In this document: in pieces, positions 4,169 to 54,410 of the stretch
How positions within the stretch are numbered: the stretch's first letter is position 1
How the letters are laid out: each line of letters opens with the position of its first letter
Origin: Clostridiales bacterium
GTDB lineage: Bacteria > Bacillota > Clostridia > Saccharofermentanales > Saccharofermentanaceae
Direction: 5' to 3'
Length of the DNA: 64,000 nt
Assembly: GCA_017649645.1 (NCBI GenBank)
Contig: JAGCGK010000143.1
Span: 62,001-126,000, forward strand
Notes under the pieces: model-generated
What the model was told of the DNA's origin: nothing
The model's input: the letters and a program-made list of their open reading frames with translations, nothing else
Database searches by the model: none
Position numbers and translations under genes: made by a program

Positions 4169-5200
4169 ATGGCTTCACATATCGTAAGTTTCGATAATCT
4201 CAAGTCTTTGATCACTGAGAAAAAGCTTAATAATCTTCTTTTGCTGTCGGGCGAAGAGGATTATTACTGTGAGTTTGCCGTTAATATGATCAAAAAGCAG
4301 TATCTGGCTGAAGGTTCGGAGCAGATGGATTTTGTTAAGCTTAACTTTGAATCCAAGGGTTTTGATCTTGATAAGATCGATGAGAATGTAATGCTTCCGC
4401 CGTGGATGTCCGAGAAGAGAATAGTTGTGGTCCGTAATTCGGGTATCTTTTCTGCAGCTGATCCTAAAAAGGACCTTGCTGATACTTTCTCCTCTTTCGT
4501 GGATACCATTCCTGAGTCTACCTTGCTCATATTCTGGGACGACAAGATCGATAAGAGGAAAAAGCAGCTATATAGCATTTTCGAGAAGAACGGTTATTGT
4601 TGTGATTGTCCTATTCTTAAGGAATACGATATAGAAGAAAAGCTTCGGACAAACCTCAGAAAACATAATATTACGATAGACAGTGACGCCAGCGACAGCC
4701 TCATCAACAGGACCGATAAGTCCATGAGAGCAATAGCTTCCGAAGTAAATAAGATATATCTCTACTGCAGGGAAAAAGGTATCACGCACGTCGACTATAA
4801 CGTTATTGATACTTTGTGTGCTCCTGATATCTCGGGAAGGATATTCGATATTCTGGACGGTATCAGCGAGGGCAACTGTTCGAAGGTGCTCCTTACTCTT
4901 GATAACATGCTTAACCAGAAGGAACCTGTTGAGAGGATCAAGTATAGTCTTGCTAACCATATAAGACAATTGATCTGTGCCAAGGAACTTAAGACTGAGT
5001 CAAAGATAGTGGAAAGGCTGGGTGCAAAGCCTTATACAGCCAAAAAGCTTGCAAAGCAGGCTCCTAAGTTCGAGATGGAAAAGCTCTTGTATCTCCTGTC
5101 GGTATGTGCCAAGACCGAATATGAGGGAAGACTCGGTAAGATGGACGGCAGACAATCCCTGGAGATCATACTGGTGCTGGCCTGTAAGAGTCTGACTTGA
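4169..5200 (+). CDS. holA: DNA polymerase III subunit delta
   Basis: Clamp-loader delta subunit that opens the sliding clamp at the replication fork. At 343 residues it has the family length. The N-terminal region (LLLSGEEDYY) matches the delta-subunit nucleotide-binding-like fold, which lacks a working Walker A. A lid domain follows, then a C-terminal collar with the conserved arrangement around the LL.LDNMLNQKEPVERI stretch. It directly follows comEC and its AAGGAG ribosome site lies in the comEC tail, implying cotranscription. The rpsT gene that often follows holA is not here. Confidence 0.88.
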   Translation: MASHIVSFDNLKSLITEKKLNNLLLLSGEEDYYCEFAVNMIKKQYLAEGSEQMDFVKLNFESKGFDLDKIDENVMLPPWMSEKRIVVVRNSGIFSAADPKKDLADTFSSFVDTIPESTLLIFWDDKIDKRKKQLYSIFEKNGYCCDCPILKEYDIEEKLRTNLRKHNITIDSDASDSLINRTDKSMRAIASEVNKIYLYCREKGITHVDYNVIDTLCAPDISGRIFDILDGISEGNCSKVLLTLDNMLNQKEPVERIKYSLANHIRQLICAKELKTESKIVERLGAKPYTAKKLAKQAPKFEMEKLLYLLSVCAKTEYEGRLGKMDGRQSLEIILVLACKSLT

Positions 5201-5225
5201 TAAATCAATACACTTAACTTAAAAT
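5197..5225 (+). promoter_or_regulatory. promoter for icd
   Basis: TTGATA at 5197-5202 and TAAAAT at 5220-5225 are 17 bp apart in the short holA-icd gap. The -10 overlaps the inverted repeat at 5214-5236. Confidence 0.5.
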
Positions 5226-5236
5226 ACATAAGTTAA
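5214..5236 (+). promoter_or_regulatory. perfect inverted repeat overlapping the icd -10 (candidate operator)
   Basis: TTAACTTA and TAAGTTAA are perfect 8-bp complements separated by 7 bp and cover the -10 element of the proposed icd promoter. There is no T run, so this is not a terminator. The geometry suits a dimeric repressor that blocks the promoter; the regulator is unknown. Confidence 0.5.
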
Positions 5237-5262
5237 ACAGTTAATCATTGGAGGAGCAAACA

Positions 5263-6459
5263 TTGGATAAGATCAAAATGACCACGCCGCTTGTTGAGAT
5301 GGACGGCGATGAGATGACAAGGATCATCTGGAAGCAGATAAAGGATATCGTTATCCTTCCTTTCGTTGACCTTAAGACAGAGTACTTTGACTTGGGTCTC
5401 GTAAACAGAAATGCTACAGACGACCAGGTTACCATAGATTCAGCTAACAGGACCAAGGAGCTCGGAGTAGCAGTTAAGTGCGCTACTATCACACCTAATG
5501 CACAGCGTATGGAAGAATACGATCTTAAGCAGATGTGGAAGAGCCCTAACGGAACGATCCGTGCAATCCTTGACGGTACAGTATTCAGATCACCTATCAT
5601 GGTAAAAGGTATCGATCCTCTTGTTTCCACATGGAAGAAGCCTATCACTATCGCTCGTCATGCATACGGTGATGTATATAGAGATTCCGAGATGAAGATC
5701 GATGGTGCAGCTAAGGTCGAGCTTCTTGTTACATATCCTGACGGAAGCACAAAGAAGCAGGAGATCTTCAACTTCAAGGATTCCGGTGTTGTTTTGGGAA
5801 TGCATAATACTGACAAGTCCATTTCGGCATTTGCTCGCTCCTGTTTTACATATGCACTTGATACAAAGCAGTCCCTGTGGTTTGCAACAAAGGATACTAT
5901 CTCCAAAACATATGATCACAGATTTAAGGATATCTTTGCTGAGATATTCGAAAACGAGTTCAAGGACAAGTTCGAAGCAGCAGGTATCGAATACTTCTAC
6001 ACACTTATCGATGATGCAGTTGCTCGTATCATGAAGTGCGAAGGCGGTATCCTCTGGGCTTGCAAGAACTACGACGGTGACGTAATGAGTGATATGCTCG
6101 CATCCGCTAACGGCTCTCTTGCTATGATGACATCCGTTCTCGTTTCACCTGACGGTAAGTACGAGTACGAAGCTGCTCACGGTACAGTTACAAGACACTA
6201 CTACAAGTACCTTAAGGGTGAAGCTACATCAACTAACCCTATGGCTACATTGTTCGCATGGACAGGTGCTCTTCGTAAGAGAGCTCAGCTTGACGGCCTT
6301 GCTGATCTTGAGGCTTTCGCTGACAAGCTCGAGAAGGTTTCGATCGAGACAATCGAAGAAGGTACAATTACAGGCGATCTTAAGAATCTTATCGATATTC
6401 CGGTAAAGAATGTCGTTAATACGGAAGACTTCCTTAAGGCAGTTGCTTCCAAGCTTTAA
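5263..6459 (+). CDS. icd: NADP-dependent isocitrate dehydrogenase, dimeric eukaryote-like type
   Basis: Converts isocitrate to 2-oxoglutarate with NADPH production, giving the carbon skeleton for glutamate. The sequence follows the dimeric type II (eukaryote-like) family rather than the E. coli type. It starts with the [11 protein letters not shown] strand and has KSPNGTIR for isocitrate binding, with [12 protein letters not shown] and STNPMAT in the C-terminal half. About 398 residues is usual. TTG at 5263 is six bases after GGAGGAG and is the likely start; ATG at 5278 is too far from the ribosome site. Eighteen bases separate it from the SEC-C gene. Confidence 0.93.
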
Positions 6460-6477
6460 TAAACGGAGGAATTAATT

Positions 6478-6996
6478 ATGAGTTATTACGAGACATGGAT
6501 CGAGAGATCTGAGAAAGAGACAGATCAGCAGAAATACACACAATATATGAATCTTTACTTCGTTCTTGAGAAGAACGCTTATGATGCGATCCTCAAGGCA
6601 TATCCTGAGTATCAGGGTCTTGTAACAGGTAAGGCTTCAGAGCTTTGTGAGAAACTTAACTTCGGTAAGTCCAATATGGATATCTTCGTAGGCTTCCTTG
6701 ACGGTATCAAGACAAGTCTTAACAAGGATATCGATGTTGAGAATGTTGAAGACGATACAGATATCGCTTTGGACATCGATTTCGAGAAACTCTACTACAA
6801 CATGAGAGATGCTAAGGCTGAGTGGCTTTATAAGCTTCCTTCCTGGAGCAATGTTCTTACAGTTGAGCAGAGAGACAAGATCTCTTTCGAGTACAGAGAA
6901 GCAAATACTGTTCGTTCTGAGAAGATCGGCCGTAATGATCCATGTCCTTGCGGTTCAGGTAAGAAATATAAGAAGTGCTGCGGCAAGAACGCTTAA
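6478..6996 (+). CDS. SEC-C motif protein of unknown function
   Basis: 172 residues. The first ~140 are helical, acidic and rich in Tyr/Lys/Glu without a motif I recognise. The last ~22 form a SEC-C zinc-binding motif ([13 protein letters not shown]), the same kind as the SecA tail at 22 kb. In SecA this motif binds zinc and contacts SecB or the ribosome; stand-alone SEC-C proteins are common but mostly uncharacterised. It has its own GGAGG site and may be cotranscribed with icd. Function is unassigned. Confidence 0.75.
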
Positions 6997-7019
6997 GCTC
7001 TTTATAAAGGGGAGTTATC

Positions 7020-7922
7020 GTGCGAAGACTGTTTGCTAATAAATGGTTCATCATAGCCTTAGTGGCAGTATTTCTTGTTGCGATAATTATCCTCGGAGCG
7101 ATCCCTAACAGCCCTCTAGATAAGGTGCTGACACCTCTTCGTGCAGTCGCCAACCCTATCCAAAGCGGAATCAAAGGTTTTGGAACTAAGGTTGACGATT
7201 ATTGGGCTGCCATAACTGACGGTGTTGCCATCAGAAAGAGAAACGAGGAACTTAGTGAAGAGATCGCGAGGCTCCAGCACGAAGTTCAGCAGGGTGAAGA
7301 AGCTATCATCAGATATGAGGAGCTTAAAGATGCCTTTCATATCAAGGATACCTTCAGCGATTACGATATCTTCGGTTCTTCAGTATTATCCCGTGAAGCA
7401 GATGAATGGTTCAGCGTAATCAGAATCGATGCAGGTAAGGATGACGGACTCGAACTTACCGGCAAGAATTCCTATGCTGTTGTTGATACCCAATCAAACC
7501 TTATCGGTCGTGTTATCGAGACTAACAATAACGACAGTAAGGTTCTTCCGCTTCTTCACGAAGGTTTTACCGTTAACGGAAAAGTAAACGAAGTCAACGG
7601 CGCATTCATCATCATTTCCGGTGATGCTTCACTTAAGCGTCAGGGACTTTGTCTTGTTACGGGTATCGATGAGGACGTTGTCCTTGAGCCGGGTGATGAG
7701 ATCGTTACTTCAGGTGACGGAGGTCTTTTCCCTCAGGGTATTCCTATCGGTACGATCGAAGAAGTTGATTATTCCGATCCTTTGAACATAAAGGCGACAT
7801 TAAGACCTTATGCACAGATAGATGATCTTAAGGATGTGTTCATCATGGTACCTTACGATAAGGAGGAAGAGGTCTCCGCGGAAGAAACAGGTGAGACTTC
7901 AACTGCCGATGAACAAGGTTGA
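7020..7922 (+). CDS. mreC: rod shape-determining protein MreC
   Basis: Bitopic scaffold of the elongasome that links MreB/MreD to peptidoglycan synthases. One N-terminal transmembrane helix (about residues 10-28) is followed by a coiled coil (about 70-105). Two beta domains follow with the family's IDAGKDDGL and VTSGDGGLFPQGIPIG motifs near 135-245, then an acidic Glu/Thr-rich tail. The GTG start follows GGGGAG. mreB is not upstream, where a SEC-C gene and icd stand instead, so mreB must lie elsewhere. It overlaps mreD by 14 bp. Confidence 0.92.
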   Translation: MRRLFANKWFIIALVAVFLVAIIILGAIPNSPLDKVLTPLRAVANPIQSGIKGFGTKVDDYWAAITDGVAIRKRNEELSEEIARLQHEVQQGEEAIIRYEELKDAFHIKDTFSDYDIFGSSVLSREADEWFSVIRIDAGKDDGLELTGKNSYAVVDTQSNLIGRVIETNNNDSKVLPLLHEGFTVNGKVNEVNGAFIIISGDASLKRQGLCLVTGIDEDVVLEPGDEIVTSGDGGLFPQGIPIGTIEEVDYSDPLNIKATLRPYAQIDDLKDVFIMVPYDKEEEVSAEETGETSTADEQG

Positions 7923-8529
7923 ACTGATCCGTAAGATAGTTATTTATTCCGTTTATATTCTGTTCCTTACATGCTTTCAGGTCTCATTCCCGGATAAGTT
8001 GTCACTTAACGGACAGATCGCAGACCTGATGTTTGTATTTGTCGTTCTTGTTGCGTACATGTTCGGCATCAAAGACGGCATCATAATCGGATTGATCGTC
8101 GGAATCTTAAGGGATTGTTTTGCGGCTCCGGCTGTTATCGGTCTTAACGGTTCTGTCGTATCTTCGGTCGGTATCGGTGCATTCCTTTTGTTTTCAGTGG
8201 CTGTCTTTTCTGCATCCGTTTTTACGATCAAGATCAAGAGAAAGCCTGCTTTTGCGCTCCTTACCCTTATCAGTGTAACTGCGCTTTATAAGATATTCGG
8301 TCACGGTATTATCTTTATTTGGACAAGGGTATTTTCGAAAACACTCTATCACTTGTCAGCTAAGGAACTTTTTATTGATTCCATCTTTACTCAGATTTTC
8401 CTGAATATTCTTGCTGCGATTCCTATATACTTACTTTTGAGATTTGCCGGACCGTATAAAAAAGGACAAAATCCGATGCTTAGCGCTCAAGAGGGAAGGG
8501 GGGCTGATTCTTCATGGCTAACAATCTGA
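7909..8529 (+). CDS. mreD: rod shape-determining protein MreD
   Basis: Polytopic elongasome membrane protein of 206 residues with five to six hydrophobic segments. The FQVSFPDKLSLNGQIADLMFV start and the loop GIKDGIIIGLIVGILRD (near residue 60) are typical of MreD. The ATG at 7909 is chosen because it gives the normal family N-terminus; the frame stays open further upstream inside mreC, which is just overlap. It overlaps mreC by 14 bp and the PBP2 gene by 16 bp, indicating translational coupling. Confidence 0.87.
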   Translation: MNKVELIRKIVIYSVYILFLTCFQVSFPDKLSLNGQIADLMFVFVVLVAYMFGIKDGIIIGLIVGILRDCFAAPAVIGLNGSVVSSVGIGAFLLFSVAVFSASVFTIKIKRKPAFALLTLISVTALYKIFGHGIIFIWTRVFSKTLYHLSAKELFIDSIFTQIFLNILAAIPIYLLLRFAGPYKKGQNPMLSAQEGRGADSSWLTI

Positions 8530-10874
8530 AAGATGACGGCATGTATGTTTTCGATGAAGACAAACGAGATCAACAGAAGATCAATGATGACAGTCTCCTG
8601 AAAAGACTTTTGACATTCCTTTCAAACAGATACTTTGTACTGGCGTTCGCTTTTTGCGTCATGGGCGTGATCATCTTATATATGACCGCGGCTTTGCAGT
8701 TCTCCGGATACCAGAAGACTATTTCTTCATCTACCAAAGGACTTCAGAAGATGTTTACCGTAAGTGCTCCGAGAGGCGATATCCTTGATGCCAACGGAGT
8801 AGTTCTTGCTACAACGGAGAAAGTAAACTCGTTACTTATTTCTGATGCCGGTATGTCTGATGAAGACCTTAACGCAATGTGTCTTGAACTCAGCTATTTG
8901 TTTGATGATTATAACTGTATCTCTGTAAGCGGTCTTGATGACTATTTCAAGATCGGACCTTTTGAATTCCTTCAGCCGGAGGACAAGATCAGGCTTTGGC
9001 AGACTAACAGGAACCTTTTTGATCTTGACGAGAGTGCTCAGGGCATCATCGTTACTTATTCCGATAATTATGTTAAGACTGATCCGCAGGTCTTTTTCCT
9101 TTACCTGAGATATCTTTTCAATATCGATCCTCAGTTAAGTGAAGATGAAGCCTTCAGGATCATAAGGATCAGGTACCAGATATTCCAGGATTATTGGGCA
9201 TTCCAGAACGGTACTCCTGTACAGATAGCAACTGACGTACCTGATGAACTTATCAGATATCTGAATGAACAGAATTACCATTTCATGGGACTTATCGGTG
9301 TTGAGGACTATAGACGTGTCTATACTCCGCAGGCTCAGTTGTCATGTCATGTTGTCGGTTATGTCGGTAATATCTCCCAGGAATCTCTGGCGAGTTTAAG
9401 TAAGTTCGGTTATCAGGCAAGCGACATTGTCGGTCAGTCAGGTGTTGAGTCTCAGATGGAAAGATATCTTCACGGTCAGGCCGGAATCGCGACTTATTCT
9501 ACTTGGACCGAAGATGGTGCTGATTCCATGTTTTTCCCTTATACATATGGCGAGAACCCTGTTGCAGGTGCAACTGTTAACCTGACTATAGATTCCAATC
9601 TTCAGAAAGTCGGAATCGAAGCTCTTAAGCAGTTTATCGAAGATGCTAAGATCGATGAACAGACCAGACAGACAGGCTATAAGACAGCTAATGCAGGTGC
9701 TTTTGTTGTCATGAACTGTAAGACAGGTGCAGTTCTTGCCATGGGATCATATCCTAACTACGACCCTAACGACTTCGTGCTCGCTATGTCAGGAGATAAG
9801 CAGGCAGAAGTACAGATCAAGTATTATCTCGGTATCGGTGAATACGAGGAAATGACCAGTGAAGACATGCCTTTGTGGAACAGAGCCATCATGTCCAGAT
9901 ACGCTCCGGGATCCACATTTAAGATGTGTACGGCTCTTGCAGGTCTTGAGGCAGGCGTTATAACTCCTAATTCATCCTGGGTAAAGTGTGAGTCTCCTAT
10001 CGATATCGGCGGTTGGACATTTAAGTGTCTCGAGTATCCTGATACAGGTCACGGAGCATTGGATCTCAATAGTGCCATCGCTACATCCTGTAACATCTAC
10101 TTCATGAGACTCGGTGTTGATACGGGTATCGATAATATTGATGCCATGGGTGAGAAACTCGGCTTAGGCGAATATACGGGAATCGACCTTCCCGGTGAGG
10201 ATGTCGGTGTAAGAGCAAGCCGTGAGACAAAAAGACTCCTTCATGAATCCGAGTACGACAGAACATGGTTCCCGGCTGATACGGCTCAGTCCGCTATCGG
10301 ACAGTTCGATAACTGTTTTACTATCCTTCAGCTCTGCAGATATACCAGTGCAATTGCTACAGGTGAGCTTGTAACTCCGTATGTTATCGATAACGTTGTA
10401 GCTCCAGACGGTACGATCCTTTATGAAGGACAAAAGCCTTCGATCCCTCTTGAAGTGGATCAGAGTAATCTTGATGCGGTCCGTTTTGCCATGCGTTGTG
10501 TTGTAACCGGTACAAACGATTGGGAAGGAACAGCTCAGGAATCTCTCTCGGACTTCCCGATCTCTATCTGTTGTAAGACAGGTACTGCTGAGACAGGTTT
10601 TGAGGATATAAGAATGGAGTATTCCAACGGTCTTTTCGTTTGCTATGCTCCTGCAGATGATCCGGAGATTGCCATCGCTCTCGTTGTAGAGAGAGGTGAG
10701 TGGGGTAATTCCACATCCATCATCGCGAAAAAGCTCCTTGCTGCTTATTTCGGTGTTCCTCTTACTGGCGATCCGAGCGTTACAGATACTGTGCCTGTAA
10801 CAGGTGATTCGATCGATCTGGCTTTGCCTGAAAGTCGCTATGAAGATGATGAAGTCATCACCGCTGAGGGATAA
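8514..10874 (+). CDS. mrdA: penicillin-binding protein 2 (class B transpeptidase of the elongasome)
   Basis: Cross-links peptidoglycan during side-wall elongation. Residues 1-45 are cytoplasmic, a single transmembrane helix lies at about 42-64, and the non-catalytic dimerisation domain begins at APRGDILDANG. The transpeptidase domain holds the nucleophile Ser467 in STFK, then the SCN motif, then KTGTAETG. 786 residues is somewhat longer than average, with acidic inserts in the dimerisation domain and an Asp/Glu-rich tail. It is the third gene of mreC-mreD-mrdA; rodA and the min genes that often accompany it in Clostridia are absent here. Confidence 0.93.
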   Translation: MANNLKDDGMYVFDEDKRDQQKINDDSLLKRLLTFLSNRYFVLAFAFCVMGVIILYMTAALQFSGYQKTISSSTKGLQKMFTVSAPRGDILDANGVVLATTEKVNSLLISDAGMSDEDLNAMCLELSYLFDDYNCISVSGLDDYFKIGPFEFLQPEDKIRLWQTNRNLFDLDESAQGIIVTYSDNYVKTDPQVFFLYLRYLFNIDPQLSEDEAFRIIRIRYQIFQDYWAFQNGTPVQIATDVPDELIRYLNEQNYHFMGLIGVEDYRRVYTPQAQLSCHVVGYVGNISQESLASLSKFGYQASDIVGQSGVESQMERYLHGQAGIATYSTWTEDGADSMFFPYTYGENPVAGATVNLTIDSNLQKVGIEALKQFIEDAKIDEQTRQTGYKTANAGAFVVMNCKTGAVLAMGSYPNYDPNDFVLAMSGDKQAEVQIKYYLGIGEYEEMTSEDMPLWNRAIMSRYAPGSTFKMCTALAGLEAGVITPNSSWVKCESPIDIGGWTFKCLEYPDTGHGALDLNSAIATSCNIYFMRLGVDTGIDNIDAMGEKLGLGEYTGIDLPGEDVGVRASRETKRLLHESEYDRTWFPADTAQSAIGQFDNCFTILQLCRYTSAIATGELVTPYVIDNVVAPDGTILYEGQKPSIPLEVDQSNLDAVRFAMRCVVTGTNDWEGTAQESLSDFPISICCKTGTAETGFEDIRMEYSNGLFVCYAPADDPEIAIALVVERGEWGNSTSIIAKKLLAAYFGVPLTGDPSVTDTVPVTGDSIDLALPESRYEDDEVITAEG

Positions 10875-45231: not shown

Positions 45232-47346
45232 ATGAATACTTTGATTTCAGTCTTCAGAAAAAGCCCGTTACTCGGAAAGATATGCTTTTACTTTTTGATG
45301 TTCTTTCTTGCAGTACAGAATTTACTGTATTTTGACTATACTGCTTATAGAATGATCTTTCCTCTGATAATCACACTTTTCTCGTTATTTACGGGTTTTC
45401 ATGTCAGTGTGTTCAAAAAGGAGATCACTAAAAAGCATAAGCTGATCGCTTTGGTATTAACAGTTCCATTGCTTTATATCTTTTTCTTCTTCTTTACGGG
45501 TACGAGAAATCCGGTATTCCTTTATAGAGAGCGAGTCAAGAGTCCGCTTTCCATTGTAGTTTTTATATTTGCAATGTTGTGTGATCTTGTATTGGCGTAT
45601 TGGCTCGGTCTTATCTTGTCATTTGCAGTTTGTGAGAAGTTCAAGAAGAGGATCATCAGGCTGGCTTTGTTATTCGCTGCTCTTGGATTCATGCTCATCA
45701 TGTATCTTCCGATGGATTCTTATGTTGCTAATATCCAGAACTTCGGATTTACAATGCATAATTTCTTCTATTACTACATTTTCTTCTACATCAGTCTGGT
45801 TATAATCTTGCCTTTGACTTTTGCAAGACTGAAGGATAAGCATTTTGATCTTATGTATAAGATCCTATTTGCTACTACTATCGGATCATTTATTCAGTAT
45901 ATGTTCATGAATAAGCACTTACCGTATCTTGGTCTTACAGGCGAGAAGATGGTATGGAATATTCCGGTCCTTCTTCTGAATACTGTAATTTGGGTAGCTA
46001 TTTTCGTAGCTGTTTTCATGGCTCCGAAGTTCTTGAAGGATAAATATGAGAAGGTCGGAAATGCCGCATCTCTTATCATCCTCAGCTATCACTTGATATC
46101 TTTGATCCTTGTTATGGTATTTGCTCCTGCTGATGTATATTCATCCAAGATCTTGGCTTACTTTGATCCATCCGATCAATTCCTTCTTTCGAAAAACAAC
46201 AATGTAATAGTATTTGTATTTGATGCCTACGATAATAAGGATATGCAGGATCTTTATATGGCAGATAATCATAGGTTTGACAGACTAAAGGACTTTACTT
46301 TCTATACTAATACTACAAGTACATTTGATTCAACTATAACTTCCATCAACAGTTTCTGTGGAGGATGTGATTATGATAAAACGTACACGTTGGATGAATG
46401 GCTTGATTCTGGTTGGAATAGCGAAAACACAACAAGTTTTTATAACGCAATGCATTCTGCAGGTTATAAATGTAATGCTTATAATTTTGATATTCCGATC
46501 ATCGAATATACAGAAGGCAAATTTGATAATGTCGTAAAATATGACGAACCTCAAGAGAGAAGAGTATTCTTTTTCGACCTGAATAAGTTCTATGATGATT
46601 TCCAGGAACTTGCATTGTATCGTGCTATGCCATATCTGGTTAAGAACCTAGTTTCTCTTGCTATTGACAGAGATGCCTTCAATTTCTACGTTACATATTA
46701 TGATAATGATCAGAGTTGTTATTACAACGATGAGTATATCGAGAATCAGAATTATTCCACAGTGGATGACAACATATTCATGTATAACCATCTGTTTGGT
46801 GTTCATGAACCTTGTGATTATGAACTTGAGAAAGATGCATGTTTTGTAATTATGTATCGTTTGTTGGAGAATCTGGAGAGCATGGGATTATACGACAGCA
46901 GCACGATAATCTTTATGTCAGACCATGGTTCTCATCGTAATGATGCCGAATCAGTAGGTGCTTCTCCGATATTTATGATAAAAGAAGCAAATGTTACTCA
47001 CGATTCTATCGTATTTAATGATGCTCCTATCTGCTTGAGCGACTTTATCGGAACTGTTGCAGTAAATGCCGGACTTGATAATCCGGAGCAGTATGGAAGC
47101 TCGATTTACGATTATGCAGAAGGTGACTACAGAGAGCGTGTCGTATATGAGAGATTGTTCGATTCTTCATTGCCGACAGTATATGCGACGGGTCATTTGT
47201 CTTATATGATCAGATATAATGCCTTCACGAAATATGTAATTTGCGGAAAAGCATCTGATCTTAACGGCATCAATCCTTTTGAGTCACCGACTAATGATAA
47301 AGTTATAGATATTGAAATATTCCCTATGAAGGAGTATTTTGGTTAA
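45232..47346 (+). CDS. LTA-synthase-like membrane enzyme (alkaline phosphatase/sulfatase fold), copy A
   Basis: 704 residues. About eight hydrophobic segments fill residues 1-305, then an extracytoplasmic alkaline-phosphatase-superfamily domain. Metal/catalytic positions: Asp331 in VIVFVFDAYDN, a Thr pair T368/T370 in STITSINSF as nucleophile candidates, and Asp564-His565 in SDHGSH. This is the plan of LtaS, which polymerises glycerol phosphate, and of phosphoethanolamine transferases; the actual donor is unknown. It shares order and motifs along its length with the 697-residue copy at 47.6 kb, and a 76-residue membrane protein lies between them. Confidence 0.8.
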   Translation: MNTLISVFRKSPLLGKICFYFLMFFLAVQNLLYFDYTAYRMIFPLIITLFSLFTGFHVSVFKKEITKKHKLIALVLTVPLLYIFFFFFTGTRNPVFLYRERVKSPLSIVVFIFAMLCDLVLAYWLGLILSFAVCEKFKKRIIRLALLFAALGFMLIMYLPMDSYVANIQNFGFTMHNFFYYYIFFYISLVIILPLTFARLKDKHFDLMYKILFATTIGSFIQYMFMNKHLPYLGLTGEKMVWNIPVLLLNTVIWVAIFVAVFMAPKFLKDKYEKVGNAASLIILSYHLISLILVMVFAPADVYSSKILAYFDPSDQFLLSKNNNVIVFVFDAYDNKDMQDLYMADNHRFDRLKDFTFYTNTTSTFDSTITSINSFCGGCDYDKTYTLDEWLDSGWNSENTTSFYNAMHSAGYKCNAYNFDIPIIEYTEGKFDNVVKYDEPQERRVFFFDLNKFYDDFQELALYRAMPYLVKNLVSLAIDRDAFNFYVTYYDNDQSCYYNDEYIENQNYSTVDDNIFMYNHLFGVHEPCDYELEKDACFVIMYRLLENLESMGLYDSSTIIFMSDHGSHRNDAESVGASPIFMIKEANVTHDSIVFNDAPICLSDFIGTVAVNAGLDNPEQYGSSIYDYAEGDYRERVVYERLFDSSLPTVYATGHLSYMIRYNAFTKYVICGKASDLNGINPFESPTNDKVIDIEIFPMKEYFG

Positions 47347-47623: not shown

Positions 47624-49717
47624 TTGCAAATAACTAAAGAGAAAGCTTTGAAGCTTATAAGAAAGTACAGTTTTCTTATACTTGATTTTTTGTTGCTCGT
47701 TTTTATATTTCAGATTTCATATGCTCTTCATAAGTCAGTTTCTTTTATTCTTATGTTGATCCTTTTTGAAATCGTCTCTAAAACGGGGCTTTCAACGCGA
47801 ATAGTCGACAGGTTTAATCCGCCATTGTTCTTTGTATCAATGTGCTTTGCGACTTTCCCGTTGTATTTGTTCTACAACTATTTTTTCAAAGATTTACCGG
47901 ATTTCATAACAAGATTTGCTGCGCCGATCTTGTTGTTGGATTGTATTTTCTTTGCCATATTGATATTTTTCCCGCTCTCGTTTGTCATTAAAGACTCAAA
48001 GGGAGTTGCCAAAAAGTATTTCAAGTCTCTTGTCGGTACATTGGCATTGTCTTTCATGGTAAATATCTATCTGCCTCTTGATTCTTTTATCGGAAATATC
48101 GATAATTTCGAATTCCCGATCCAGAGATTCATCGGATGGCAGCTTTTGTTTTGTGTTGTAGTTGCTTGTTTTGCAGCAACATTGCTTTTCTTGATACCTG
48201 ACAAGATCTATACATTTGTATATGCTGCTTTACTCGGAATAGGTATAGCTGCTTATGTTCAATACAATTTCCTTAACAGCGAACTTACTTTGCTTGGAGT
48301 ATCTAATGATGCTTTAAGCGTTTCAGTTAAGACAAAGGTTATCAATATAATAATCTGGCTGGCTATAATCCTTGCTTGTGAAGCTTTAGCTGTTTTACTT
48401 AAGAAAGTTCAGAAGAAGGAAGATAAAAAGAACTATTTTACTATCGGATTTATCCTTTACTTTGCGCTTCATCTTGTATCCAGCGTTTTGCTGATTGCTT
48501 TTGCTCCTCAGCAGATATATGGAGTAACTTCCGAGTATTTTGTTGATTCAACGGATTGTTATACGGTATCCAAGCATAATAACGTTATCGTCATTGTTTT
48601 TGACTGTTTTGATAATTCATATGTTCAACCTTACTATGAAGAGAATCCTGCTGCATTTGACGGACTTAAGGATTTTACTCTTTATACTGACACCTGCAGT
48701 GTCTATGATTCTACGGTTACTTCTATGTCTCAGATGTTCGGCGGTGCCGAATTCGATAATACTCTTGGTAAGTATGATTGGTTTGAAGCTTCATGGAACA
48801 GTGAAAAGACATTGAAGTTCTATGAGCTCTTACATCAGAACAACTATGAGTGTAACGGTTTTAACTTTGAGATGCCTGAAAAGCAGTATATTTACGGTAA
48901 GTTTGACAATGTTCATAAGAATGAAAAACCTGAACTTCTGGAACTTGACTGGTTTGAATATGAGAGATTCCAGAGAGATTTCGGTAAACTTGCTCTTTTC
49001 CGTTGTTTGCCTTATTGTTTCAAGGAATTCATCGAGTTTGACGGACTTTCATTCAGAGAGATCGCAACATATAAGTTAGGCTCCGATTCTTATTATATGA
49101 ATTCAGATTACCTTGCACATTTGGATCTGCATTTTGCTGATGATGACAAGAATTATCTCATGATCAATCATATCAACGGTACTCATAAGCCTTGTACTTT
49201 GGAAGAAGGTATCGTCAGTTCCTTTGATATCATGAATAAGATCGTTCAGCAGCTGAAAGATCTTGGTGTTTATGATTCTTCTACGATCATATTCACTTCT
49301 GATCACGGCTATCATAATGAGGAAGCCGAATTTGATTGGGGTGCAACACCACTGTTTATGATCAAGGCTCCTAATGATCAGCATGACAGCATCGTATTTA
49401 CGAAAACTCCTGAATACCATGAGGATATTATGGGAACGATCGCTTATCTGACGGGAATCGATCAGTATGTTGAACCGGGATTTTTCGGTAATACTATTTA
49501 TGATTTTGATGAAAACTCCGTAAGAACCAGGATCTTCTATGACAGGATCTATGATGAGGGACTTCCTGCAATTTACAGTACGGGTCGATTGAATTATACG
49601 ACTATCTATAATGCATACTGTAAATATGAGTTCACCGGTCCGTCTGATATCCTTTACGGTAAGGCACCGGGCAGTGAGGGAACTGAATCTCTGCCTATGA
49701 CGGAGTATTTCGGATAA
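47624..49717 (+). CDS. LTA-synthase-like membrane enzyme, copy B
   Basis: 697 residues. Same design as copy A: about eight transmembrane segments to residue ~305, then the sulfatase-fold domain. The predicted residues are Asp327 in VIVFDCFDN, T364/T366 in STVTSMSQMF, and Asp560-His561 in SDHGYH. Shared landmarks with copy A include a WF/WL-x-x-x-WNSEKT segment, FDNV before the middle domain, and an identical end pattern PM.EYFG. The start is TTG at 47624 after GGACGGAAG. Its TAA is directly followed by the stop codon of the convergent xer gene. Confidence 0.8.
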   Translation: MQITKEKALKLIRKYSFLILDFLLLVFIFQISYALHKSVSFILMLILFEIVSKTGLSTRIVDRFNPPLFFVSMCFATFPLYLFYNYFFKDLPDFITRFAAPILLLDCIFFAILIFFPLSFVIKDSKGVAKKYFKSLVGTLALSFMVNIYLPLDSFIGNIDNFEFPIQRFIGWQLLFCVVVACFAATLLFLIPDKIYTFVYAALLGIGIAAYVQYNFLNSELTLLGVSNDALSVSVKTKVINIIIWLAIILACEALAVLLKKVQKKEDKKNYFTIGFILYFALHLVSSVLLIAFAPQQIYGVTSEYFVDSTDCYTVSKHNNVIVIVFDCFDNSYVQPYYEENPAAFDGLKDFTLYTDTCSVYDSTVTSMSQMFGGAEFDNTLGKYDWFEASWNSEKTLKFYELLHQNNYECNGFNFEMPEKQYIYGKFDNVHKNEKPELLELDWFEYERFQRDFGKLALFRCLPYCFKEFIEFDGLSFREIATYKLGSDSYYMNSDYLAHLDLHFADDDKNYLMINHINGTHKPCTLEEGIVSSFDIMNKIVQQLKDLGVYDSSTIIFTSDHGYHNEEAEFDWGATPLFMIKAPNDQHDSIVFTKTPEYHEDIMGTIAYLTGIDQYVEPGFFGNTIYDFDENSVRTRIFYDRIYDEGLPAIYSTGRLNYTTIYNAYCKYEFTGPSDILYGKAPGSEGTESLPMTEYFG

Positions 49718-50695
49718 TCAGATATCTTCCGGAGTAAAATCAGATAACGGATTACTTTCGACGGCCTTGTGTAAGAGGTCGTCGTCTACGTGTGTGTAAA
49801 TCTGAGTAGTCGATACACTGGCATGTCCCAGGATCGTCTGAAGGCTTCTGAGATCCACGTGACCATATTTATACATAAGTGTAGCAGCTGTGTGTCTGAG
49901 CTTATGTACCGAATATGTGTTAGGATCAAGGCCGCTTTGGATGATAAGATTCTTGATCGTTATCTGTATCATGTCTTCAGATAATCTCAATCCTTTTCGA
50001 GAAACAAAAAGAGCATTTTTAGCTTCAGGCTTGATGTTATATTTGTTCCTTACTTTGAGCCATTCTTCTATGGCTTCAATACAGGACTTGTTAAGGTAGA
50101 TCGTTCTTTCTTTGTTTCCTTTACCGATTACAGTCAGTATGTCTCCGTGTATATCATTTAGATTGATGCCTCTAAGCTCAGCAAGACGCATTCCGCAGTT
50201 TAAAAAGAGGATAACGATACAGTAATCTCTCTCGTTTGACTCCGTAGGCGCGTTATAAGCGGCATTGATGAGAGCCTGGCTTTCTTCCAAAGTAAGATAC
50301 TTAGGAGATCTCTTGTTCTTCTTCGGGTTTTCGAGTTCCAGGGTAGGATTATTCTCGAAAAGGTGCTTTTTAACGCAGCAATACTTATAAAAGCTTCTTA
50401 AAGAAGATATCTTTCTCGATCTTGAAGCAGCGTTTAATCCCTGATCTCTGCTGAGCCAGATAAGATAGGCGAAGATGTCATTTGTCTTGATGCCGGATAT
50501 GAATTTAACATCGATATCCGATATGTCGATCCCCTGAAAATCCGTGTCCTTGGAAACGAGTTTTCTGTCTATCTTCATATACCTGAAAAAGATCACGATG
50601 TCACCCTTGTAGTTCTTTACCGTAAGGTCTGAACGGTTCAAAACTGCAAGCATATAATTCTCATATTCTTCTAGTACAGGGAATGAATTAATCAT
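49718..50695 (-). CDS. tyrosine recombinase, XerC/XerD-like
   Basis: 325 residues. SAM-like N-terminal domain (1-~115) and catalytic domain with Arg170, Lys192, His264, Arg267, His291 and Tyr300, a complete active set in the expected order. Length and motifs (LGHASVSTTQIYTHV) fit the chromosome-dimer resolvases XerC/XerD. I cannot tell which one it is. It lies alone on the minus strand with no attachment sites or mobile genes nearby. Confidence 0.87.
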   Translation of the reverse strand: MINSFPVLEEYENYMLAVLNRSDLTVKNYKGDIVIFFRYMKIDRKLVSKDTDFQGIDISDIDVKFISGIKTNDIFAYLIWLSRDQGLNAASRSRKISSLRSFYKYCCVKKHLFENNPTLELENPKKNKRSPKYLTLEESQALINAAYNAPTESNERDYCIVILFLNCGMRLAELRGINLNDIHGDILTVIGKGNKERTIYLNKSCIEAIEEWLKVRNKYNIKPEAKNALFVSRKGLRLSEDMIQITIKNLIIQSGLDPNTYSVHKLRHTAATLMYKYGHVDLRSLQTILGHASVSTTQIYTHVDDDLLHKAVESNPLSDFTPEDI

Positions 50696-51950: not shown

Positions 51951-51989
51951 AAAGAGACTGTTTCCTTATGTGAAGCAGTCTCTTTTTTT
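51951..51989 (+). terminator. terminator of asd
   Basis: AAAGAGACTG at 51951-51960 pairs with CAGTCTCTTT at 51976-51985. TTTC and GAAG extend the stem inward, and a T run follows to 51989. The next promoter starts four bases later. Confidence 0.92.
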
Positions 51990-51992
51990 GGC

Positions 51993-52020
51993 TTGACATT
52001 CAGCCGTCTATTAAGATAAT
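51993..52020 (+). promoter_or_regulatory. promoter of the YidC-Tag fusion gene
   Basis: A consensus TTGACA -35 and GATAAT -10, spacer 16 bp, 20 bp before the start codon. Confidence 0.7.
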
Positions 52021-52040
52021 AAATATGGCGAGGTGAAATA

Positions 52041-54095
52041 ATGGGACATATATTATCTTTCTTTTCGATGATTAATGACGGATTGATCTTTGGTTTGGGC
52101 CAGATCATGCGTCTTTGCTACTTTATCTGCAATAACTACGGTTTGAGCATTATCTTGTTTACTCTTATCACTAAGGTAATTCTTTTGCCGCTTGCGATCA
52201 TTGTTCAGATCAATTCCATCAAGATGGTTAATCTTATGCCTGAACAGAACGCATTGAAGATCAAGTATATCGACGATAAAGATAAATTCACCGACGCTCA
52301 GCTCGAACTTTATAAGAAGCACAAGTATAATCCGATCATCGGTGTTATACCTCTTTTGATCCAGGTTCCTTTGGTATTGGGTCTTGTAGGTGTTATCTAT
52401 AGACCATTGTCCTATGTATTGAGTTTTAACAGTTCAACTGTTGAATCTCTTAAGACCTGGCTCATCACTACTATGAACGGTGCAGAGCTCACAAGCAGAT
52501 TCCAGCTTGATATCATCAGCAAGATCAAAGACGGTATCGTTCCTACAGATGCTTCGCTTCTTGAATCAGTTACCAAGATCACTAATTTCGATACACATTT
52601 CCTTGGTATCGATCTGAGTGCTACTCCTAGTTTCCATGGTAATTACATTCTCTTGCTCATTCCTATCCTTTCCGGACTGAGTGCCTGGTTCCTCTGCGAG
52701 ATGCAGAACAGGATCAATGTATTGCAGCTTACTCAGGAAAAGCCTTATATGATCGCTACAACTGTTTTCATGGTTGCATTCTCTACATATTTCGCTTTCC
52801 TTGTTCCTACAGGTGTTGGTCTTTATTGGATATTCGGTAACCTTTTTGCCGTTCCTTCTATGATCCTTGTTAATCTTATTATTCCGCCAAAGAAGCATAT
52901 AGATTACGAGTATTTCGAGAAGATGAAGGCGGAGAAGGCCAAAAAAGAGAAGATCCGTAAGGAACATATGTCTGTCGAGAAGAAAGACTACAAGCGTTTC
53001 TTCGAAGTACAGGATATGAAGCTCATGATCTACTCTGAGCAGAACGGTTTCTATAAGTACTATGCCGGAATCATTGATTATATCTGTGAGAATTCTGATC
53101 TTGAGATCCATTACGTAACGAGCGATCCTAAGGATAATATCTTTAATGATCCGAGAAAACAGATCAAGTCATACTACATTGCTTCCGATAAGTATCTTAT
53201 TCCGCTTTTCATGAAGCTTGATTGTAAGATCTGTCTTCTTACGACTCCTGATCTTGAGAAGTATCAGCTCAAGAGATCCAAGGTTAATAAGAATATCGAG
53301 TATATCTATTCCGATCATGCTATGGCAAGTATCAACCTTACTTTGCGTAAGGGTGCTTTGAACTACTATGATACTATCTTCTGCTGTGGTCCTGACTATG
53401 TTGAAGAGATCAGAGCTATAGAGAAGCTTTATGGAACAAAGAAGAAGAGACTCGTTGAGACAGGTTATCCTTTGATCGATGATATGGTTGCTAAATACGA
53501 GGCTTCTGAGCATGTTAAGCATGACAGGCCAATGATCCTTATCGCTCCGTCATGGCAGCCTGATAACATTTTCGAGTCATGTATTGATAATATCCTTAAA
53601 TATTTGAAGGATACTGAATATGACATTATCTTAAGACCTCATCCACAGCAGGTAAGGCATATGCCTGAACTTTTCGAGGAGCTTCGTAAGAAGTATGAAA
53701 CAGAGGGAAGCAATATCAAGGTTGATACTGATTTTTCTAAGACTAACCCGGTTATGGAGGCTGATCTTCTTATAACTGACTGGTCCGATATCTGTTGGGA
53801 GTATTCATTTACGACCAAGCGTCCTGTTCTTTTCATCAACACTCCAATGAAGGTTATGAACCCTGATTATGAGAAGATCGATATCGTTCCTAAGAACATC
53901 AAGCTTCGTAATGTAATCGGTAAGAGTGTCGATCCGGATAAGGCTGAGGAAGTTAAGCCTGCTATTGATTACTTGTTGGAGCATGCAGGGGAGTACAATA
54001 AGACTATTGATGATACGTTCCACGAGTATATCTTTAACATCGGAAAGAGTAAAATCCTTTGCGGTAAGTATATTTTGAAGAGGCTTGGAAAATAA
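52041..54095 (+). CDS. YidC/Oxa1-like insertase fused to TagB/TagF-like CDP-glycerol transferase domain
   Basis: 684 residues. Residues ~1-285 are YidC/Oxa1-like: NYGLSIILFTLITKVILLPL, the cytoplasmic hairpin with MPEQNALKIKY, and GVIPLLIQVPLVLGL, then TVFMVAFSTYFAFLVPTGVGLYW. The groove Arg of B. subtilis YidC is Lys45 here, keeping a positive charge. No signal peptide or lipobox is seen. A charged helix (~290-315) leads to a C-terminal ~360-residue domain matching CDP-glycerol glycerophosphotransferases: ILIAPSWQ, ILRPHPQQ, and ADLLITDWSDICWEYSFTTKRPVLF. YidC topology puts this domain in the cytoplasm. No frame break is seen between the parts. Confidence 0.85.
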   Translation: MGHILSFFSMINDGLIFGLGQIMRLCYFICNNYGLSIILFTLITKVILLPLAIIVQINSIKMVNLMPEQNALKIKYIDDKDKFTDAQLELYKKHKYNPIIGVIPLLIQVPLVLGLVGVIYRPLSYVLSFNSSTVESLKTWLITTMNGAELTSRFQLDIISKIKDGIVPTDASLLESVTKITNFDTHFLGIDLSATPSFHGNYILLLIPILSGLSAWFLCEMQNRINVLQLTQEKPYMIATTVFMVAFSTYFAFLVPTGVGLYWIFGNLFAVPSMILVNLIIPPKKHIDYEYFEKMKAEKAKKEKIRKEHMSVEKKDYKRFFEVQDMKLMIYSEQNGFYKYYAGIIDYICENSDLEIHYVTSDPKDNIFNDPRKQIKSYYIASDKYLIPLFMKLDCKICLLTTPDLEKYQLKRSKVNKNIEYIYSDHAMASINLTLRKGALNYYDTIFCCGPDYVEEIRAIEKLYGTKKKRLVETGYPLIDDMVAKYEASEHVKHDRPMILIAPSWQPDNIFESCIDNILKYLKDTEYDIILRPHPQQVRHMPELFEELRKKYETEGSNIKVDTDFSKTNPVMEADLLITDWSDICWEYSFTTKRPVLFINTPMKVMNPDYEKIDIVPKNIKLRNVIGKSVDPDKAEEVKPAIDYLLEHAGEYNKTIDDTFHEYIFNIGKSKILCGKYILKRLGK

Positions 54096-54294: not shown

Positions 54295-54379
54295 GGGAAG
54301 ATTCCCGAGCGGCCAAAGGGAACAGACTGTAAATCTGTCGTCAGTGACTTCGGTGGTTCGAATCCACCTCTTCCCACCA
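54295..54379 (+). tRNA. tRNA-Tyr(GUA)
   Basis: 85 nt with a long variable arm as in class II bacterial tRNA-Tyr. Acceptor GGGAAGA/TCTTCCC, anticodon loop CTGTAAA, discriminator A, encoded CCA. Confidence 0.95.
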
Positions 54380-54410
54380 AACTGTCCTGATTGCTCAGGA
54401 CAGTTTTTTT
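54380..54410 (+). terminator. terminator of the tRNA unit
   Basis: AACTGTCCTGA and TCAGGACAGTT form an 11-bp stem with a 4-base loop and a T run, directly after the tRNA-Tyr CCA. Confidence 0.93.

Follow-up and report, generated by a model that had tools for sequence, protein, structure and literature searches.

The groove of YidC normally carries an arginine, the C-terminus of the protein lies inside the cell, and nucleotide donors are cytosolic; LtaS and EptA draw head groups from lipids at the outer face of the membrane. YidC of Escherichia coli scrambles lipids in vitro, according to the part of the report that was available to us (PMC10491306). Bacterial phosphonate capacity is said to go mostly into tailoring the cell surface, and the steps leading from 2-aminoethylphosphonate (AEP) to surface phosphonates were called unknown or enigmatic in 2019 (PMC6697681, accessible text). 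Here we describe a gene that joins a YidC/Oxa1-like membrane domain to a TagF-like transferase domain in a 64,000-nt stretch of a Clostridiales genome (the window; contig JAGCGK010000143.1). Plain positions below refer to the whole window, and L, G and C numbers denote loci, genomes and contigs (of the window genome unless another is named), respectively. From its sequence and its company we propose, giving the proposal about an even chance, that the fusion is a membrane-bound transferase of small phospho- or phosphono-groups activated by cytidine monophosphate (CMP), that it works within a lipid relay, and that it is not a CDP-glycerol polymerase.

The gene is one unbroken open reading frame on the forward strand, from the ATG at 52041 to the stop codon that ends at 54095, and encodes 684 amino acids (aa). 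An earlier interpretation of this DNA made without database searches (the sequence-only reading) had seen a YidC/Oxa1-like and a TagB/TagF-like domain in a single frame, and this description stands. PF02096 matched residues 33–278 (120.4 bits, cut-off 35), PF04464 matched residues 458–599 (49.5 bits, cut-off 22.1), and neither a stop nor a frame change separates the halves. The C-terminal half thus resembles CDP-glycerol transferases above the Pfam cut-off, with a partial match that covers only profile positions 147–292 of 367. The N-terminal half also matched the YidC domain TIGR03592 (106.4 bits, cut-off 84.3), and five hydrophobic segments, read from hydropathy only, lie near residues 32–61, 96–121, 200–221, 236–256 and 259–282. 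The ordinary YidC of the window genome is encoded elsewhere, in the order rnpA-yidC-jag-mnmE (open reading frames as read), and the fusion is 24% identical to it over residues 19–300. Lys45 of the fusion aligns with the groove Arg of this ordinary YidC (TLITKVILLP versus TVLIRACLIP). Among 47 aligned fusion rows, which include near-duplicates (the window and L004; L007 and L052), this position is Lys in 45 and Arg in two; the charge-preserving exchange that the sequence-only reading had pointed out is a trait of the whole fusion family. In the transferase half His426, Arg532-Pro-His534-Pro and Asp580-x-Ser582, along with other residues, do not vary in any of 39 rows (34 from fused and 5 from unfused proteins), and a profile of this half matched the solved structures of Cps3D (8qoy, 36.8 bits) and TarL (8va1, 28.9 bits).

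A scan of public contigs (genome_contigs) returned 44 loci with relatives of the fusion, 38–99% identical over the best segment; several of them are apparently identical to records of the genome set (L004 and G090, for example). Both halves are spanned in 42 of the 44, and the other two (L046, L047) start at a contig end within the transferase half. The records are mostly named Lachnospiraceae, Oscillospiraceae or other Clostridia and come, by their titles, from gut and rumen. By genome, a match spanning both halves was present in 23 of 188 genomes of the order, of which 10 belong to the window's genus and 13 to a second family; within the window's family the fusion was found in 10 of 115 genomes. 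All 10 fusion-bearing genomes of the genus also encode an ordinary YidC of 342–372 aa. In a tree of 83 transferase domains, 50 fused domains were split from 33 standalone ones by one fully supported branch. The tree does not date the fusion, because the standalone rows were found only by their similarity to it and in one family.

An LtaS-like protein was present in 31 of 45 loci (the window and L004–L047; the same set underlies all 45-locus counts), in seven of them in the same chain and in 24 as a separate gene, and in none of nine control loci around ordinary yidC genes (Fisher p 0.0002 by locus). The triple fusions (L013, L018, L026, L029, L034, L041 and L047) are roughly 1,205–1,420 aa long. 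Six of them show all three domains, and the contig of L047 starts inside the transferase half; in the transferase tree the six triple-fusion rows form one clade. Their third domain is homologous to two proteins of the window, at 45232–47346 and 47624–49717 (LtaS-like enzymes 1 and 2). Asp175, Thr212, His369, Asp408 and His409 are invariant in 31 of 31 rows (31 of 36 fetched stretches were used), and enzyme 1 keeps the invariant D, T, H and DH residues. We take these, by the roles of such residues in LtaS, to be the acidic ligand, the Thr nucleophile and the DH pair, a pattern that would be that of an active alkaline-phosphatase-type enzyme. Enzyme 2 scored 688 bits with our SULF profile, which was built partly from that row; enzyme 1 had no Pfam match of its own, PF00884 being barely reached and by enzyme 2 only. 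Most family members are just 19–27% identical to the window copy. Against solved structures the family profile scored 45.1 bits with a choline-sulfatase, 44.6 bits with LtaS (2w5q) and 36.4 bits with a phosphonate monoester hydrolase, and we chose the label LtaS-like because of the membrane part and the LtaS match.

The same domains occur in other combinations. PF02096 matched 13 times in one genome of the genus and nine and seven times in others, with many of the frames ∼870–940 aa long. In several of 14 fetched stretches, a standalone transferase is followed by a protein of 862–936 aa with a YidC front and an LtaS-like back (L132: PF02096 82.4 bits, PF00884 44.2 bits; in L121 and L120 the sulfatase match is under the Pfam cut-off). 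Such a protein flanks 15 of 20 standalone-transferase loci (L058–L077) at more than 40 bits to the profile of either half, and 11 when the YidC half alone is counted; L070 overlaps a stretch used for the profile. All 25 rows of this YidC-LtaS-like form, near-duplicates among them, have Asn or Ser at the groove position. There are thus three arrangements: a YidC-transferase with a separate LtaS-like protein, a YidC-transferase-LtaS-like chain, and a transferase with a YidC-LtaS-like protein. That the three domains are joined in three ways suggests more than independent neighbours. Since the YidC domain switches partners and carries Asn or Ser in its groove in the YidC-LtaS-like form, it also seems to have been repurposed, and not to be simply a general insertase, which gives a sharper form to the idea of a scaffold or flippase raised by the sequence-only reading. 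In one stretch (L120:1679–15588) five tandem frames of 921–936 aa follow a standalone transferase; PF02096 matches all five, and we read them as YidC-LtaS-like fusions.

In other genomes the neighbourhood of the fusion includes genes for LicC-type cytidylyltransferases, for choline kinases and for BCCT transporters, as well as the phosphonate genes PepM, Ppd and PhnW. A cytidylyltransferase, choline-kinase or phosphonate gene, detected with in-house profiles, lies in 21 of the 45 loci. In L144 a choline kinase, an EamA transporter, the fusion and an LtaS-like gene stand in this order, together with a divergent LicC-like gene (all five confirmed by Pfam); in L148, a human faecal contig, the fusion, a small membrane protein, PhnW, PepM and Ppd are consecutive on one strand. 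In L022 no more than some tens of bases separate the end of the fusion from the next gene, the exact distance varying with the choice of start codon. In the second family, where 14 genomes carry all or part of the fusion, four were read; a choline-kinase-like and an LtaS-like gene lie at the fusion in all four, and a LicC-like gene in three.

Two lines were dropped. Co-occurrence of PepM and the fusion by genome was discarded as evidence, since PepM is too common in the window's family to be informative and was not found in the fusion genomes of the second family. The label PntC was considered for the aminotransferase-fused cytidylyltransferases of L020, L022, L027, L030, L032 and L042. PntC is fused to an AEP-transaminase domain in Tde1415 of Treponema denticola (PMC6697681, accessible part), and we rejected the label because the pyridoxal-phosphate half of the L022 enzyme is of the HisC/CobD type (PF00155; TIGR01140 165.8 bits, under its cut-off of 290.55). 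The amine activated by these cytidylyltransferases could be AEP, phosphoethanolamine or aminopropanol phosphate. Elsewhere, L130 has a PepM fused to two cytidylyltransferase-type domains (4984–7976) with an iron alcohol dehydrogenase adjoining in the place of PhnW, suggesting that this genome may make hydroxyethylphosphonate instead of AEP, and one PepM match contains an in-frame TGA (G040:C52:4225–5517).

In the window's own genome, a metagenome-assembled genome (MAG) of 201 contigs and ∼90% completeness, contig C16 carries Ppd, PepM and PhnW, all above the cut-offs of NCBIfam, together with a LicC-like gene whose front part resembles a helix-turn-helix. This phosphonyl-tailoring set (PepM, Ppd, AEP transaminase and cytidylyltransferase) is not adjacent to the fusion and matches the set found near the fusion in L023 and L028. 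Near-identical PepM genes are present in G087 (97%) and G090 (99%, partial). For C16 the tetranucleotide correlation with the window was 0.839 (0.872 and 0.861 for parts of two further contigs in the bin, 0.90–0.96 for chunks of the window), which neither proves nor excludes that C16 belongs to the bin. The genome yielded no choline kinase, and its only PF04464 match is the fusion. Among its five PF01467 matches (PepM, a NadD-like and a RibF-like protein, one beside an rsmD-like gene and read as CoaD, and a weak one in a 481-aa frame) TagD was not recognised; the names other than PepM are readings of sequence and position. As the AEP cassette of C16 is present and choline kinase and a recognised TagD are not, CMP-AEP is our best guess for the donor in this genome.

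From these architectures, gene associations and conserved candidate catalytic residues we infer the following reactions and their direction. The TagF-like half, expected in the cytosol because the C-terminus of YidC and the nucleotide donors lie inside, would take a group from a CMP or CDP donor, here most likely CMP-AEP and in relatives CDP-choline or a similar compound; we consider this class of donor likely. The acceptor would be a lipid or a lipid-linked glycan at the inner face of the membrane, for and against which the scales are level. The YidC-like half would anchor the enzyme with its C-terminus inside and might provide a route by which the polar head group crosses the membrane, a tentative step about which we are more sceptical than hopeful. 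At the outer face the LtaS-like enzyme would move the group to its final surface acceptor, a step that falls slightly short of an even chance. Because an inner-face transferase, an insertase fold and an outer LtaS-like domain share one chain in some species, the head groups may travel on a lipid. In its most complete form, the proposal would be a single-chain machine in which the transferase loads AEP, phosphocholine or a similar zwitterionic head group on a lipid, the YidC fold acts as scramblase or flippase and the LtaS-like domain delivers the group; this form we find doubtful.

Several observations weigh against the proposal. The LtaS-like gene was not seen in 14 of the 45 loci and donor genes were not seen in 24, in part owing to the shortness of contigs. 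Because the choline-sulfatase scores as high as LtaS, the LtaS-like protein could be a hydrolase; its sequence by itself is not enough to tell the two activities apart. The identity between fused and unfused transferases is only 24–26%, so that the donor class may not carry over from one to the other. No match to the donor profiles occurs in the whole window, the AEP cassette lies on a separate contig of 8.5 kb in a MAG with 6.33% contamination, and two LicD genes of the genome could use CMP-AEP as competing consumers. The nearest relatives (L004–L011) have no donor gene at their loci, apart from a 29-bit PhnW match in L007. None of the nine control loci contained a donor gene (119 open reading frames, same profiles; Fisher p 0.009 by locus), but all nine are from the window's genus and are not taxon-matched. 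The genus fusion loci that were read (the window, L004–L007 and L122) are also without a donor gene above 100 bits, and for this reason all that the comparison demonstrates is that the profiles give no random matches. In favour of the proposal, standalone transferases lie within 20 kb of PepM in 30 of 115 rows among the matches listed, where ∼2 would be expected (19 of 62 genomes), but the rows are related to each other and draft contigs skew the count both ways. PepM itself is present in 92 of 115 genomes of the window's family (two of the matches weak) and the fusion in 10, of which two (G046 and G058, neither of them complete) yielded no PepM. PepM was likewise not found in any of the 14 genomes of the second family that carry all or part of the fusion, and a scan of 38 genomes returned one match, 34% identical, in G118, whose fusion score is far below those of the fusions.

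The main rival explanation keeps the donor class but assumes a LicD-like transfer to a cytosolic glycan or teichoic precursor, with the YidC half as a mere anchor, a separate flippase and the LtaS-like protein otherwise employed. This is how S. pneumoniae proceeds according to the accessible part of PMC4364537, LicD adding phosphocholine to the precursor and TacF flipping the product, and the fusion of G046, which sits within a cluster of nucleotide-sugar and glycosyltransferase genes, fits such a scheme. However, a plain anchor would need no whole YidC fold, and the YidC and LtaS-like domains are joined to one another or to the transferase in all three arrangements; we regard this explanation as unlikely. 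The sequence-only reading had proposed the extension of a polymer from CDP-glycerol, i.e. a glycerophosphotransferase that makes or primes a teichoic polymer on a YidC scaffold. The PF04464 match and the LtaS-like neighbours agree with this, as does the finding that Cps3D and TarL are the sole solved relatives with E <0.1 in the profile search, while the lack of a recognisable TagD and the choline and AEP genes of relatives (the 21 loci and the four of the second family) count against it and make it quite improbable. A gene that reads like IspD/TarI, beside one of the LicD genes on C189, keeps CDP-ribitol as a possible donor.

If the YidC half were instead a dedicated insertase or assembly chaperone for the many-spanning LtaS-like partner, with the transferase fused to hold the complex together, its family membership and the positive groove residue conserved in the YidC-transferase form would be accounted for, but the Asn or Ser in every row of the YidC-LtaS-like form would not, and we would judge it unusual for an insertase to carry its client on the same chain; we consider this very improbable. 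Finally, a misassembly or frame error joining two genes is conceivable in a MAG of so many contigs. Since relatives span both halves in many loci and genomes, down to 38% identity and including the record of a named strain (L033), and since the 50 fused transferase domains all fall on one side of one tree branch, its probability is negligible and we dismissed it. The reading that we prefer remains that of a head-group transferase in a lipid relay.

The surroundings of the gene (Table 1) suggest that it may well be transcribed alone, because a promoter-like site and a ribosome-binding-site-like stretch precede it and hairpins stand on both sides. The promoter of its own that had been read from the sequence matches the consensus at 11 of 12 positions and is placed between the first hairpin and the start codon; the stretch as a whole holds 10 such sites, no excess over shuffles (7.7, standard deviation 2.7). 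Two LtaS-like genes, UppP and an acyltransferase are neighbours of the fusion, as had been noted before, but not in direct contact throughout, since a XerC-like gene and asd stand between the LtaS-like genes and the fusion. This XerC-like recombinase gene (49718–50695, reverse strand), two genes upstream of the fusion, is kept in L004–L007; we saw no strong inverted repeats around it and nothing strong around the fusion gene.

Table 1. Features of the fusion gene and its surroundings in the window
Feature	Position	Strand	Length and basis
yidC-transferase fusion gene	52041..54095	+	684 aa; single frame; PF02096 and PF04464; relatives in 44 loci
YidC/Oxa1-like membrane domain	52137..52874	+	residues 33–278; PF02096 120.4 bits; hydropathy; conservation
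Charged linker	52896..53003	+	residues 286–321; Lys/Arg- and Glu-rich
TagF-like transferase domain	53004..54086	+	residues 322–682; PF04464; conserved residues; structure-profile matches
Promoter-like site TTGACA-16-GATAAT	51993..52020	+	11 of 12; consensus match only
Ribosome-binding-site-like GAGGTGA	52030..52036	+	read from sequence
Terminator-like hairpin after asd	51951..51985	+	consensus match only
Terminator-like hairpin after fusion gene	54379..54406	+	consensus match only
LtaS-like membrane enzyme 1	45232..47346	+	704 aa; likely partner; homologous to third domain of triple fusions
LtaS-like membrane enzyme 2	47624..49717	+	697 aa; likely partner; PF00884 25.8 bits (cut-off 25)

Some relatives showed features of their own. 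In Anaerotruncus sp. G3(2012) (L033:6784–11881) an inverted repeat of 1137 nt (95%) is common to two full-length YidC-transferase genes that point in divergent directions. The repeat extends over the YidC half into the beginning of the transferase half; the genes differ beyond it, and a tyrosine recombinase gene (8975–9883) lies between the arms. The pair looks like a cassette for exchanging transferase specificity, and in this one strain it suggests that the surface decoration could be variable. Further fusions have gained an extracellular-looking N-terminal extension (L020:9431–11896) or a long Glu/Ala-rich tail (L027:9977–12676). The record of L024 is named Candidatus Saccharibacteria, and its tree position among Clostridia suggests mis-binning. 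A Y(I/V)DP motif is present in small membrane proteins that adjoin fusions (L041:7415–7738, L148:3225–3530) and also opens the membrane anchor of standalone transferases (start of L130:10664–11947). A plasmid search gave matches to the YidC half only, in three records. In a phage collection four records matched, three with full-length relatives and all in faecal contigs. Two of these, L148 and L149 (MT836947.1 and MT836777.1), are unannotated and filed as Bacteriophage sp., and their fusion is accompanied by an AEP operon or by an LtaS-like gene; no phage gene was recognised from their frames, and they are probably bacterial DNA in virome data.

If the relay exists, it would fill in the terminal steps that are missing from phosphonate tailoring in bacteria, and the fusion family is a concrete candidate for the enzyme and the route to surface phosphonates in gut and rumen Clostridia. 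It would also be, to our knowledge, the first insertase-fold protein devoted to the transport of lipid head groups. An insertase fold with lipids as its main job is made plausible by the lipid scrambling of E. coli YidC in vitro (PMC10491306, available part).

Compared to known systems, the N-terminal half shares with YidC/Oxa1 proteins (PF02096, TIGR03592) the whole membrane domain, a charged loop past the first segment and a charged stretch past the last, and differs from them in being joined to an enzyme, in its Lys for the groove Arg and in its low identity to the YidC of its own genome. With TagF, TarL and Cps3D (PF04464) the fusion has in common the R-x-H(P) and D-x-S regions, which align with those of Cps3D and TarL; it forms, in contrast, a divergent subfamily, tethered to YidC and with choline or AEP genes at nearly half of its loci. 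The LtaS-like proteins resemble LtaS and other sulfatase-fold membrane enzymes in having an alkaline-phosphatase-type domain behind a multi-span part, in the D, T, H and DH residues and in the match to 2w5q, but their top profile match is the choline-sulfatase, and in relatives they are fused to YidC or YidC-transferase. The C16 genes of the window genome (PepM, Ppd, AEP transaminase and a CTP-activating gene) parallel the Pnt clusters of PMC6697681, whose accessible text contains neither YidC nor TagF and treats the later steps as unknown; it was also the only paper that the open-licence literature gave for a CMP-AEP transferase, and no description of a YidC-transferase fusion was found there in the titles and abstract openings of the papers listed. 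Finally, L144 resembles the lic phosphocholine pathway (LicA, LicB, LicC, LicD; pneumococcal gene roles from the accessible part of PMC4364537), as LicA-, LicB- and LicC-like genes accompany its fusion. Unlike in that pathway, LicD is not among the five L144 genes that were scanned (the rest of the genome was not searched for it), and the fusion and the LtaS-like gene would stand where LicD might be expected. Thus, the domains were already known, and it is their arrangement and its proposed role that are, as far as we have seen, new.

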